From an uncultured Bacilli bacterium (GTDB lineage Bacteria; Bacillota_I; Bacilli_A; RF39; UBA660): 40,264 nucleotides of DNA. This document shows positions 31,581 through 40,264 of the stretch, in pieces; the first letter of the stretch is position 1; every line of letters begins with the position of its first letter. The stretch covers positions 1 through 40,264 of the forward strand of contig CALVXO010000015.1 in assembly GCA_944371325.1 (NCBI GenBank), read 5' to 3'. The notes below the pieces were generated by a model. The model saw only the letters and a program-made list of their open reading frames with translations. It ran no database searches and was not told the origin of the DNA. A program made the position numbers and the translations under genes.

Positions 31581-34630
<3,050 letters not shown>

Positions 34631-34650
34631 TCATCAACTCCTTTTTCCAT

Positions 34651-34700
34651 AAAAAAGAGGAGTCAAAAGCACTAACATTAAACTAATACCTTTGACTCCT
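34651..34700 (-). terminator. Attenuator terminator before the recombinase gene
   Basis: AGGAGTCAAA (34700-34691) pairs with TTTGACTCCT (34667-34658), followed by a run of six T, 24 bases before the recombinase start. The leader ORF at 34683-34790 enters and passes its 5' arm. Confidence 0.82.
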
Positions 34701-34790
34701 TAAACAATCGTTATTAATTCTATTACTATATCGTTTATTCCAATGCATAGAATCCCACCAATCTAATAAATGAGAAATACTGCATTTCAT
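34683..34790 (-). CDS. Leader peptide of the recombinase gene
   Basis: 35 codons, MKCSISHLLDWWDSMHWNKR and onward to LRSQRY, rich in Trp, Ser and Asn. The ATG lies only about 8-10 bases after the likely transcription start, with no ribosome site, so it may be read from an almost leaderless mRNA. Its last codons (LRSQRY-stop) cover the 5' arm of the terminator at 34658-34700. A ribosome finishing the leader would therefore keep the hairpin from forming. Translation-coupled attenuation is inferred from geometry. Confidence 0.6.
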   Translation of the reverse strand: MKCSISHLLDWWDSMHWNKRYSNRINNDCLRSQRY

Positions 34791-34803
34791 TTATTGGTTT
34801 TAT

Positions 34804-34831
34804 ATTCTATCACTTATTTTTTCTTTGTCAA
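34804..34831 (-). promoter_or_regulatory. Promoter of the recombinase operon
   Basis: TTGACA (34831-34826), a 16-base spacer and TAGAAT (34809-34804). The sequence aligns with the leftward promoter of the remnant at 28574-28602. Confidence 0.7.
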
Positions 34832-34836
34832 TAGGG

Positions 34837-35112
34837 CTAGTTTTTATGCTTTTTAATATAAGTTTCTAATTTATTAAAAGGTATAGACTTTTCTAATGTA
34901 TTAATATAAACACTCTCACATTCATTAAAGAAAAGATATGTTATCTCATTTATTTCTAACTTATGTGGTTCTATATAAGCAATGTTAGTTTTAGGAATGT
35001 GAATAATATTGCCTTTAATAATTTTAGATTTGATATTGAGAAATTTAAGTATGTTTTTAATTCGTTTTTCTAACACATCATCAATATCTAATTTTTCCTT
35101 TATTATCTGCAT
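34837..35112 (-). CDS. Recombinase-associated small protein (intact copy)
   Basis: 91 residues, unrecognised. It has a Lys/Ile/Asp-rich helical N-terminus (MQIIKEKLDIDDVLEKRI), then IPKTNIAYIEPHKLEINEIT (about residues 43-62), then a Tyr/Asn-rich end. The central block resembles a LytTR-like or small beta/alpha domain, but the assignment is uncertain. It starts behind AAAGGAGTTG and lies after an attenuator leader and before the recombinase promoter. A second, damaged copy with the same leader layout is at 28722-28928. It is probably a regulator of the element. Confidence 0.6.
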   Translation of the reverse strand: MQIIKEKLDIDDVLEKRIKNILKFLNIKSKIIKGNIIHIPKTNIAYIEPHKLEINEITYLFFNECESVYINTLEKSIPFNKLETYIKKHKN

Positions 35113-35493: not shown

Positions 35494-36468
35494 TCAACTT
35501 TTTATGAAATTTCGTAAAGCCGATAATTTATTCTTTGTATCTGAATATATAATTTTATTATAAATACTAATGGAAATTTTATTTCTAAATTCTTCAATAA
35601 TTTTTTCATAATCATTTACAAATTTATTAATTTCAGTTTTAGTAATTCCATACTTCTTTAATAACACTGAAATTATAAGAACATAATCAGTAATTGTATT
35701 AAAATCAATTCCTGTACAACCAATTTCATTTTCTAGATATTTACATAATTTAGTATCAATTTTTCCATCTTTAAATCTTACATCAAAAACTACATCATTA
35801 TGTGCAATTGAATTTCTTAACGATTTAATTAAATACATAATTTTTTCAGGAAATTTAGCATTAGTATCAAATGCAATATTTATATTCATTTCTTTATCAA
35901 TTTTATTTCTAACTTTAAATTCTAAACTCTTAATTAAATCTGCGAATGTTCCTAATGTAATTATTTCAAATATACCCCAAATTGGAACGTGCCTATCTTT
36001 TGAATAAAAATGACTAACAATTTTATTTTCATTATTATAACTTCTAGATAAAGAAGAATAAATATTATTTTGTACTGATAATCTTTGTTTCATTTTCTTT
36101 TTATATTCTTCACTAGTATTACTATTTCTATAATCAGTCATACCATTTTCATAAATAACATTAAATTCATCAGTTTTATATTCTTCAACTAATATTTGAA
36201 GTACAATATTTTTTGAAATCGTTTCTATTTGCATTATTTGTGGATATAATAAACTTTTTAATTTAGAGTCAAAATCAACTATTGAAACTATTTCATCAAA
36301 ACTAGATAAATTTATTCTATTTTGTGGATTATTAATATATCTATAACCCTTATATCCATGATAATAACCTATATTTCTTAGATTCTTTTTATCTTTAGTT
36401 CCTTCAATAGAAATATTATGCTTTTCTCTTAAATATTTCATTAAAGCATTTGTTGTTCTAACTTTCAT
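35494..36468 (-). CDS. Abi-family abortive infection protein with HEPN-like motif
   Basis: 324 residues from ATG 36468 (GAGGTGG upstream; a GTG at 36480 overlaps that site). The protein resembles AbiD/AbiF-type proteins: an N-terminal block RNIGYYHGYKGYRYINNP, a helical core and RNSIAHND (residues 218-225), a R-x4-H motif typical of HEPN RNases. Abi proteins stop phage infection by killing or stalling the infected cell. It is next to an unknown gene and a MobV relaxase, so it looks like a phage-defence cargo of the second element. RNase activity is inferred from the motif. Confidence 0.82.
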   Translation of the reverse strand: MKVRTTNALMKYLREKHNISIEGTKDKKNLRNIGYYHGYKGYRYINNPQNRINLSSFDEIVSIVDFDSKLKSLLYPQIMQIETISKNIVLQILVEEYKTDEFNVIYENGMTDYRNSNTSEEYKKKMKQRLSVQNNIYSSLSRSYNNENKIVSHFYSKDRHVPIWGIFEIITLGTFADLIKSLEFKVRNKIDKEMNINIAFDTNAKFPEKIMYLIKSLRNSIAHNDVVFDVRFKDGKIDTKLCKYLENEIGCTGIDFNTITDYVLIISVLLKKYGITKTEINKFVNDYEKIIEEFRNKISISIYNKIIYSDTKNKLSALRNFIKS

Positions 36469-36534
36469 CTTTATATCCACCTCACTTATATATAGAAAAA
36501 GAGCAAAATAAATCTTATATTTAATAAGTCTCTA

Positions 36535-37736: not shown

Positions 37737-39083
37737 TTATCTTTCAAAATCATCTTTTTCTTTACTTAAATCTAATTCTTCAATGTTTTCATCATCTAAA
37801 ACGTTATCTTCATACATATCATTAACTACATCAATGTATTTATCATCTTTATCATACCAACTATGAAGTTTATCGTGTAAGAAAGATATTAATTTTTCAA
37901 ATTTATCTTTCCAGTAATCTAATGTGTTTTTTAAATCTTGTATTTTAGATTTTAAAAATGATATTTCATTATCCTTTTCTTTAATCGTATCATTTAAAGT
38001 TTTAACTCTTAAATTAAGTGCTTCGTTATTTTCAGTAAGCGTCTTAATCTTATTATTCTTATCTTTTAGTTGTTCATAGGCATTAACTAGTGTATTAGAT
38101 AGAGTTTGGATTTTATCATACTCTTTACTAGTGTCATTAACTTGATTGATAAAGTCGATAAATGTTTCTTTATCTTCTTTTGATAAAATATAATTATCTT
38201 TATTTAATTTAGTTACTTTTAATTTATCAATTTTATCTTTTATATATTTAGAGTTTTGTTTTAACTCTGAAGATTTCTTATTTGCTTGTTTTAAGTTTTC
38301 AGTATTCTTTTCAATTTGTTTCTTCATCTCAATATAGTTGTCCATATCAGATACATGAATATCTCTATTTCTACCTTTTTGTTTTTTCTTTAAAGTAGAA
38401 TCTAAACTATATACTTGATTAAATTCTTCAATACATAAAGTTCTCATTTTATCTTGTAATCTAATTAGTGATTCTTTAGTAAACACATCAGATTTACCAA
38501 CTTGTTTTTCCATACCATTTTTGTTTTTATATTTAATTGGAACTCCAACAATATGTAAGTGTGGACTAGTTTCATCATAATGAATGATAGCACTAGCTAC
38601 TTTAAAGTTAGGAACAAGCATCTCTAAATCATCAACTTGTTTTTTATAGACTTCGGACATTTTCTTTTTAAAACTTTCATCTTTAGTATCCCAATATTCT
38701 TTATCTCCTAGTTCTAAAATAATTTCACAAGCAAGATCTTTTTTTTCATTATTAGATACATTATCAAAATAATTATCAATCATACGACTAGGTCTAGATT
38801 GTTTAGAATTGTATTCTAATCTAGCTTCTTCAAACTCATTTAAATATAATTCTTTTACATCATCAAGTGGAGAAGAAGTGCCTCTAACTATTTCAATTAG
38901 TTCTTTGTCATTATCATATTTTCTATAATTATGTTTATCTACTTTTGATAATTGTCTTACATTTTGAATAGCATTATTTGGTAAAGAAGTTGTTCCACTT
39001 AAATTATTTTTACCATTTTGTTTAGATATATTTTTTCTATTTTTATCACTACCTAGATGCAATGAATAAGCAAGCTCCGACAT
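37737..39083 (-). CDS. MobV-family relaxase of the second element
   Basis: 448 residues. The N-terminal Pre/Mob domain contains KHNYRKYDND (51-60) and the metal-binding motif IIHYDETSPHLH with H168, H175 and H177. The rest is an extended coiled coil (about 240-420) with an acidic end. It is distantly related to the first relaxase. It has a strong ribosome site (AAAGGAGG). A partial serine recombinase gene lies upstream with 247 bases between them, which hold several inverted repeats, a likely oriT. Confidence 0.9.
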   Translation of the reverse strand: MSELAYSLHLGSDKNRKNISKQNGKNNLSGTTSLPNNAIQNVRQLSKVDKHNYRKYDNDKELIEIVRGTSSPLDDVKELYLNEFEEARLEYNSKQSRPSRMIDNYFDNVSNNEKKDLACEIILELGDKEYWDTKDESFKKKMSEVYKKQVDDLEMLVPNFKVASAIIHYDETSPHLHIVGVPIKYKNKNGMEKQVGKSDVFTKESLIRLQDKMRTLCIEEFNQVYSLDSTLKKKQKGRNRDIHVSDMDNYIEMKKQIEKNTENLKQANKKSSELKQNSKYIKDKIDKLKVTKLNKDNYILSKEDKETFIDFINQVNDTSKEYDKIQTLSNTLVNAYEQLKDKNNKIKTLTENNEALNLRVKTLNDTIKEKDNEISFLKSKIQDLKNTLDYWKDKFEKLISFLHDKLHSWYDKDDKYIDVVNDMYEDNVLDDENIEELDLSKEKDDFER

Positions 39084-39329: not shown

Positions 39330-40264
39330 TTAAAAATCTTCTTCGGTAACATTATCGGGTATTGTTTCAAATACATCTCTAATGTTTACCTTTATATCAT
39401 TAGGGCTATTCTGTGTAACAAGCATTCCCATTGATAACCAATTTTCATTTCCATTATTATTTTTTTGTAATGGGAAAATTCTTACTGGTATTTCATCTTT
39501 TAATATTGGTCCAATATCTAATTTTTCAGTATCTTTATAAAATGTACCTTTATATAAATTAACTTCATAACATTCATTTAATCTATAAAAGTTTTGCATT
39601 ATATCTTTAATACTAGTAAATTCATTATATCTAACTGGAACTGAAGTTTGTATTCCATTAAAGTCAATAATCATTTCTCTTTTACAATCAATATAACCTT
39701 GATTAAATAGCATTTTAAAATCTTCATAGAAAGTACTTCTAAAATTAACATTCTTAACAACATACATATTATTTATTTCTTCAAGTTCTATATCATCAAT
39801 ATATCTCATTACTATATCAGCTTTATCATCTCTATCTAAATCAGGCCAACATTCTTCAAATGCATGATAAGTAAGTGGTAATTTGATTTTGTTAATATAG
39901 TCCATATCTCTTTTAAGTAATATATCATCAACAGTAAAATTTAATTGTTCTGCTTGTTGATTAGATATAATCTTTTCTTCTAAATCTTTGATTAAGTTAT
40001 CTAATTTTTCAGTTTCATCTTTAAATTCTTCTATTGTAAATAATTCATTAAGAAATCCTTCTTTTAATCTTTTCTTTTTATTATTTAGTTTCTTAATTTC
40101 TTCTTCTAATTCATCCTTAGGATTTTCTAATTTATTTTTAAGTACTGGTAAAAAGAATTCATTAACAACTGAATCATATTCAAATACATCATTTAAAATA
40201 TGCATTATTGCTTCTTCAATTTTATTCTCTTTAATATTATTTTTACAATCTTCACATCTATAAT
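39330..40264 (-). CDS. Large serine recombinase of the second element, C-terminal part
   Basis: The gene continues beyond the window; 311 codons are visible. It starts in the zinc ribbon (YRCEDCKNNIKENKIEEAI at the window edge) and runs through the coiled coil and C-terminal beta region. It aligns along its length with the 600-residue recombinase at 32825 (for example TVDDILLKRDMDYI against [14 protein letters not shown], and VKNVNFRSTFYEDF against [14 protein letters not shown]). The catalytic domain is outside the window. It ends before the relaxase gene, as in the first element. Confidence 0.88.
   Translation of the reverse strand, partial: YRCEDCKNNIKENKIEEAIMHILNDVFEYDSVVNEFFLPVLKNKLENPKDELEEEIKKLNNKKKRLKEGFLNELFTIEEFKDETEKLDNLIKDLEEKIISNQQAEQLNFTVDDILLKRDMDYINKIKLPLTYHAFEECWPDLDRDDKADIVMRYIDDIELEEINNMYVVKNVNFRSTFYEDFKMLFNQGYIDCKREMIIDFNGIQTSVPVRYNEFTSIKDIMQNFYRLNECYEVNLYKGTFYKDTEKLDIGPILKDEIPVRIFPLQKNNNGNENWLSMGMLVTQNSPNDIKVNIRDVFETIPDNVTEEDF

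Follow-up and report, generated by a model that had tools for sequence, protein, structure and literature searches.

We propose that a translation-gated transcription attenuator controls the large serine recombinase (LSR) and the overlapping MobV relaxase gene of a putative integrative mobilizable element (IME), a reading to which we assign a probability of about 0.72. The window analysed here is a 40,264-nt stretch of DNA, whose coordinates are used throughout. On its minus strand, positions 34831 to 34627 carry, in order, a sigma-A-type promoter, a leader open reading frame (ORF), a terminator, a U-tract and the LSR ribosome site. Little is known about what sets the moment at which IMEs exit the chromosome. 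If the proposal is right, a translation-gated attenuator on the recombinase would tie excision to the cell's translational state, and the mobility of a small element in gut-bacterial chromosomes would follow the capacity to start translation. The features are as follows (SD, Shine-Dalgarno sequence).

34837–35112, minus strand: gene for a 91-aa protein, found ahead of the LSR in almost every relative; the stop codon directly adjoins the promoter
34804–34831, minus strand: sigma-A-type promoter, TTGACA-16-TAGAAT with a TGN extension, 11/12 matches
34765–34795, minus strand: 5'-terminal hairpin S1, AATAAATGA ... TCATTTATT, 9 bp, loop with conserved GCAGTAT
34743–34785, minus strand: alternative hairpin S2, predicted to sequester the leader SD; UCAUU in common with S1
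34754–34759, minus strand: leader SD GGTGGG, spaced to the ATG at 34748; relatives have GAGGTAC or GGAGG at the equivalent place
34683–34748, minus strand: leader ORF, 21 codons plus TAG, MHWNKRYSNRINNDCLRSQRY, with its stop codon within the terminator 5' arm
34658–34700, minus strand: intrinsic terminator hairpin (the attenuator), 19 pairs, then C and T6; U-tract at 34656–34651
34634–34666, minus strand: possible second hairpin, terminator 3' arm and U-tract with the LSR ribosome site (anti-SD)
32825–34627, minus strand: large serine recombinase, 600 aa, Resolvase (PF00239, 3.9e-36) then Recombinase (PF07508, 1.2e-19); SD at 34644–34638
31581–32828, minus strand: MobV relaxase gene, PF01076; NCBIfam MobV 115.7 bits, cut-off 100

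Relatives of this locus were collected by searching species genomes with the recombinase, which gave 43 loci, and further loci came from a DNA search of 100 related genomes and from a covariance model of the leader. The terminator stands out both in the window and among these relatives. Scanning the 1-kb region returned one terminator-like site against 0.1 expected, with a fold of −22.1 kcal/mol (z −6.6), and the hairpin arms covary: own pairing reaches −22.3 kcal/mol compared with −18.0 kcal/mol for arms exchanged among relatives (p = 0.0002). Once the terminator 5' arm is occupied, the second hairpin listed above could possibly form in its place. This pairing scored z −2.2 in the window, p = 0.025 for own versus swapped partners across the family and z −8.1 against shuffled sequences; we give it little weight because it is partly a trivial outcome of a purine-rich SD next to a U-tract.

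The identity of the leader required revision. The original prediction took it to be a 35-codon ORF with three tryptophan codons, beginning close to the predicted transcription start point and ending over the 5' arm of a strong terminator just before the recombinase ribosome site. That ORF (34790–34683) exists, its ATG lies about 8 nt after the start point, and both the placement of its last codons and the strength of the terminator, which sits between the promoter and the LSR start at 34627, are borne out. The translated leader, however, is very likely the in-frame 21-codon ORF at 34748–34683. We prefer this shorter reading because the SD is correctly placed for 34748, whereas the ATG at 34790 has no SD. 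A near-leaderless start at 34790 also lacks support among relatives: an upstream in-frame ATG extension occurs in just 11 of 33 non-redundant sequences, its peptide differs each time, and where present it amounts to a reading through of hairpin RNA.

Conservation of the shorter frame is striking in degree. In each relative we chose the leader start by SD score rather than by openness of the frame. The SD-linked frame was open into the terminator in 33/33 non-redundant relatives, while the other two frames were open in 2 and 1. Counting stops ahead of the terminator gave 0 in 483 codons for the SD-linked frame, 65 in 474 for the +1 frame and 87 in 463 for the +2 frame, and the product of mononucleotide-shuffle probabilities was ~10^-24.5, far from chance. 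By these counts, the leader frame is under strong selection. Of 53 rows, 50 have the leader stop codon within the terminator hairpin; two of the three exceptions are mis-picked rows, and in the third, L085, the ORF runs past. Across the same 53 rows, each of the three frames is used for entry into the terminator (21/16/16), and the leader peptides are unrelated sequences with nothing in common. A free frame and peptide combined with a fixed stop position is what would be expected if only the arrival of a ribosome matters. Because the leader peptide is free to change, whereas an uninterrupted frame and the site of the stop are retained, the module could serve as a clean test system for control by a ribosome acting as antiterminator.

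We next consider how access to the leader may be set. Among 22 type I leaders, the type to which the window belongs, the S1 stem covaries, with own pairing stronger than swapped (p = 0.0014) and stem variants AAAG/CTTT, GAC/GTC and GC/GC; the loop, GCAGUAUC, hardly changes. Bases around the leader SD (GGUAC or GAUAC ahead of the ATG) complement this loop, and pairing between the two would give S2. S1 and S2 use the same bases, so they would be mutually exclusive or joined as an H-type pseudoknot, a geometry compatible with many members (for example, L086). S2 is the minimum-energy fold of the window 5' stretch taken alone (−10.7 kcal/mol), with a z against shuffles of only −1.24. Across 33 leaders, the probability that the leader SD is unpaired is 0.25, and shuffling of the upstream RNA raises it to 0.44 (p = 2.5e-6); the corresponding values for the window are 0.03 and 0.41. 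Comparing own and swapped partners revealed no covariation between the loop and the SD (p = 0.22), which we attribute to the fixed loop side, and the case for S2 is mostly one of conserved complementarity without covariation. A separate reading of the S1 palindrome as a DNA operator was rejected, since half-sites that vary with compensation around a fixed loop are the opposite of an operator.

Different 5' elements, which we sorted into types I–V, all engage the leader SD. Searching for a base-paired antiterminator between the 5' element and the terminator 5' arm found none in type I (z +1.3) or type II (z +1.7) leaders. We also discarded the leader SD/ATG region as a candidate partner of the terminator 5' arm (own versus swapped p = 0.18; z −1.6 against shuffles). 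Type III leaders, which belong to the same recombinase family, do carry a 12-bp antiterminator, in which GUUUUAUGUUUU pairs with AAGACAUAAAAC in the terminator 5' arm (z −7; L067, L135, L136, L138, L142 and L143). Four of these six (L135, L136, L138 and L143) have no recognisable leader ORF, a pattern that suggests one device replacing another, with an RNA antiterminator standing in for the leader ORF. With no base-paired antiterminator in window-type leaders, this part is left to the ribosome, which probably acts as antiterminator itself; the gate is probably initiation at a sequestered SD. In type IV elements (L109, L114, L139 and L155), a CUAUUUAA/UUAAAUAG-like hairpin displays the leader SD in its loop, which would be a further way of gating the same leader ORF. 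Types I–V are spread over the recombinase tree, as if the 5' elements had been exchanged.

Sequence backs the components from which a mechanism can be assembled, namely the conserved promoter, leader ORF and terminator, the sequestration of the SD, and S1. RNA polymerase would start at about 34797, and the short 5' RNA would fold either as S1, with the leader SD free, or as S2, with the leader SD hidden. A ribosome initiating at 34748 would trail the polymerase into the terminator 5' arm and stop there; with the terminator blocked, transcription would proceed into the recombinase. Were no ribosome to initiate in time, the terminator would form and no recombinase would be made. The peptide would be disposable, the read-out being prompt leader initiation together with ribosome–polymerase coupling, and the signal could be the overall capacity for translation or any influence that opens S2. 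With this anatomy, readthrough is expected when a ribosome occupies the last codons, so efficient initiation should turn the recombinase on; inhibitors of elongation could act in either direction, depending on where the ribosome stalls. In Bacillus-like hosts the polymerase may move faster than the ribosome, and coupling would then be weaker. We infer from the anatomy that readthrough would depend on translation, that S1 and S2 would act as a switch, and that excision and mobilization would be affected.

The E. coli ampC and pyrBI attenuators offer precedents in which the ribosome itself masks the terminator without a special peptide, ampC responding to growth rate or initiation and pyrBI to polymerase–ribosome coupling. 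The module described here differs from both in its genes and hosts, and the pyrBI ORF runs through its terminator; neither system is known to have a sequestered leader SD. Like Tn916 tet(M), the window combines a promoter, a short leader ORF and a terminator within a mobile element; the leader sequences themselves are not known to be related. In Tn916 the tetracycline-resistance gene comes first and the excision genes lie far downstream, whereas here the terminator directly precedes the recombinase and relaxase. Tn916 is partly regulated by attenuation that translation inhibitors relieve (PMC9632896), and translation of its leader is proposed to control readthrough toward the functions for excision (PMC9632896; Su et al. 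1992, as cited by PMC11222575). Other relatives by design are vmlR, with an upstream ORF (uORF), a terminator, an antiterminator and, past the terminator, a hairpin that sequesters an SD (PMC9226507), and mef(E)/mel, with a drug-stalled peptide (PMC4335068). The window module resembles vmlR, bmrCD and mef(E)-mel in pairing a leader ORF with an intrinsic terminator, and vmlR also in its SD-sequestering hairpin; those systems differ in relying on drug-stalled short peptides and base-paired antiterminators, the latter appearing here in type III relatives only. E. coli toiL-topAI likewise has a multipurpose uORF and an RNA structure hiding a ribosome site (PMC12121999), but toiL acts on main-gene translation with Rho termination and without an overlapping intrinsic terminator.

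These parallels raise the strongest alternative, in which antibiotics slow ribosomes down or halt them in the leader, keeping them over the terminator 5' arm and so turning the recombinase on, after the manner of Tn916 tet(M), vmlR and mef/mel. The overall layout is alike, translation inhibitors relieve the attenuation of Tn916 (PMC9632896), and leaders of ~15–25 codons keep their last codons over the terminator. However, the leader rows hold no conserved arrest motif, peptide, position or frame, and the window type has neither a base-paired antiterminator nor an anti-antiterminator, unlike vmlR (PMC9226507). No resistance gene lies directly downstream, and an early stall in the leader would cause termination, which is the opposite effect. 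We regard drug-inducible stalling as possible but distinctly the less probable account.

A second alternative places the control in the 5' element, whose loop (GCAGUAUC), S1 stem and SD pairing would form a ligand-, protein- or RNA-responsive switch. The signal would then be one particular factor, such as the 91-aa protein, the recombinase or a product of a helper element, that exposes or hides the leader SD. S1 covaries yet its loop is invariant across LSRs of 43–98% identity, the H-type pseudoknot geometry suits many members (L086 among them), and types I–V, different as they are, all engage the leader SD. Against this, SD pairing already accounts for the invariance of the loop, and neither a matching Rfam family nor a partner was found: among Rfam covariance models the leader had no match at gathering score, the best being RF01691 with 21.4 bits against 31 (E 0.016). 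We therefore find a factor-specific switch rather doubtful. Just as tentative is a broader version of the attenuator reading, in which the exchangeable types I–V would be dedicated sensors, possibly of a helper element, conjugation or ribosome availability, and would constitute a new class of riboregulator timing IME excision and mobilization through leader translation instead of through the recombinase gene.

In a third alternative, the hairpin is a plain terminator of the upstream 91-aa gene, the ORFs are incidental and the recombinase is expressed constitutively by leakage. The 91-aa gene ends 5 nt ahead of the −35 box, and its transcripts would indeed meet the terminator. A strong conserved promoter nonetheless lies between that gene and the terminator (at least 10/12 matches at the equivalent place in 29 of 33 non-redundant relatives), no promoter is predicted between the terminator and the LSR, and selection on the leader ORF would be left unexplained, which makes this account very unlikely. 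Tryptophan-specific attenuation, implied by the original prediction and drawing on the three TGG codons of the 35-codon reading, deserves next to no credence: the tandem TGG TGG is the leader SD GGTGGG itself, the third codon is retained in the nearest relatives only, any tryptophan occurs in 6 of 53 leader rows (0.5% of leader residues) with no conserved run of tryptophan control codons across them, the start at 34790 is unconserved, and a recombinase is no tryptophan gene. The principle of translation-coupled attenuation put forward with that leader nevertheless survives as the best reading of the conserved anatomy, with a different leader and without tryptophan sensing, and the response to stress or antibiotics suggested there could run in either direction.

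The attenuator module appears well beyond the window. A class-wide covariance search of 395 genomes returned 17 with a match at E <= 0.001, all within the window's own family, and in a family sample 29/117 genomes matched the leader model. Where the gene downstream of a match was readable, it was in most cases a relative of the window's LSR, and the window's own genome holds further leader copies on other contigs. By these matches, the module is widespread in one bacterial family and attached to one LSR clade. When loci were selected on recombinase identity alone, inspection by eye identified a promoter, a leader region and a terminator in ~26 of the 28 upstream regions that were readable, and the module is kept across LSRs of about 43–98% identity. 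Mapped onto the recombinase tree, the attenuator is found in each of the two main subclades but not in one clade of close LSR relatives (the L043–L066 group), which implies that it is not essential for the recombinase. Its presence requires at least 6 changes on the tree compared with 16.9 in shuffles; the tree sample over-represents attenuators, since the leader was the means of finding many of its loci. A full-text literature search, largely of openly accessible papers, found no attenuator ahead of a serine recombinase, and the module would represent translation-coupled attenuation with features not matched in Rfam or the searchable literature.

We also characterized the genes that flank the attenuator. 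The best NCBIfam matches of the LSR are CcrB/XisF/CcrC/CcrA, all far under cut-off. The MobV start overlaps the LSR stop by 4 nt (ATGA), so the two genes probably form one operon and presumably share the attenuator. MobV adjoins the LSR in L034–L042, L045, L055 and L071, and close LSR relatives at other loci occur without MobV. The combination of LSR and MobV points to a putative integrative mobilizable element with a MobV relaxase, resembling MobV-type elements with a serine recombinase of the Tn4451 kind (PMC5704250). A 2017 review of IMEs ascribes the timing of excision mostly to helper elements and leaves attenuation unmentioned (PMC5704250). Plasmid and phage records contained no close LSR relatives at >=60% identity; in a viral collection one close LSR turned up, whereas a 20-nt piece of the terminator had no exact match there. 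The 91-aa gene is present upstream of the recombinase in relatives both with and without the attenuator. Its product had no match in Pfam, PHROGs or NCBIfam, and a confident structure model (pLDDT 91) returned no match in a fold search; we consider it a candidate recombination directionality factor or regulator.

Elsewhere in the window, the C-terminal part of a second serine recombinase (39330–40264, minus strand) is cut by the contig end and is 96% identical to a recombinase on contig C26 of the same genome; a MobV-like gene (37737–39083) then follows. Between the two recombinase/MobV modules lies an Abi-like Abi_2 gene (35494–36480, minus strand; PF07751), possibly phage-defence cargo. Several leader–recombinase modules can accumulate in single small genomes, with seven leader matches in G008, and G485:C14 has a pair of sites that tie in both leader score and recombinase score. 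L088 (G030:C6) has a full type II leader with its terminator but no recombinase; this orphaned leader lies just past the apparent end of a tyrosine-integrase gene and ahead of an unknown gene, either as a relic or as a capture of the module. Lastly, in L055 / L082 (G219:C14), the terminator hairpin before the LSR is inverted, with arms and loop reverse-complemented (AGGAGTCAAAAGCACTAGCATTAAACTAATACCTTTGACTCCT) between flanks nearly identical to those of the window, reflecting either an arm-templated hairpin flip or an assembly effect.
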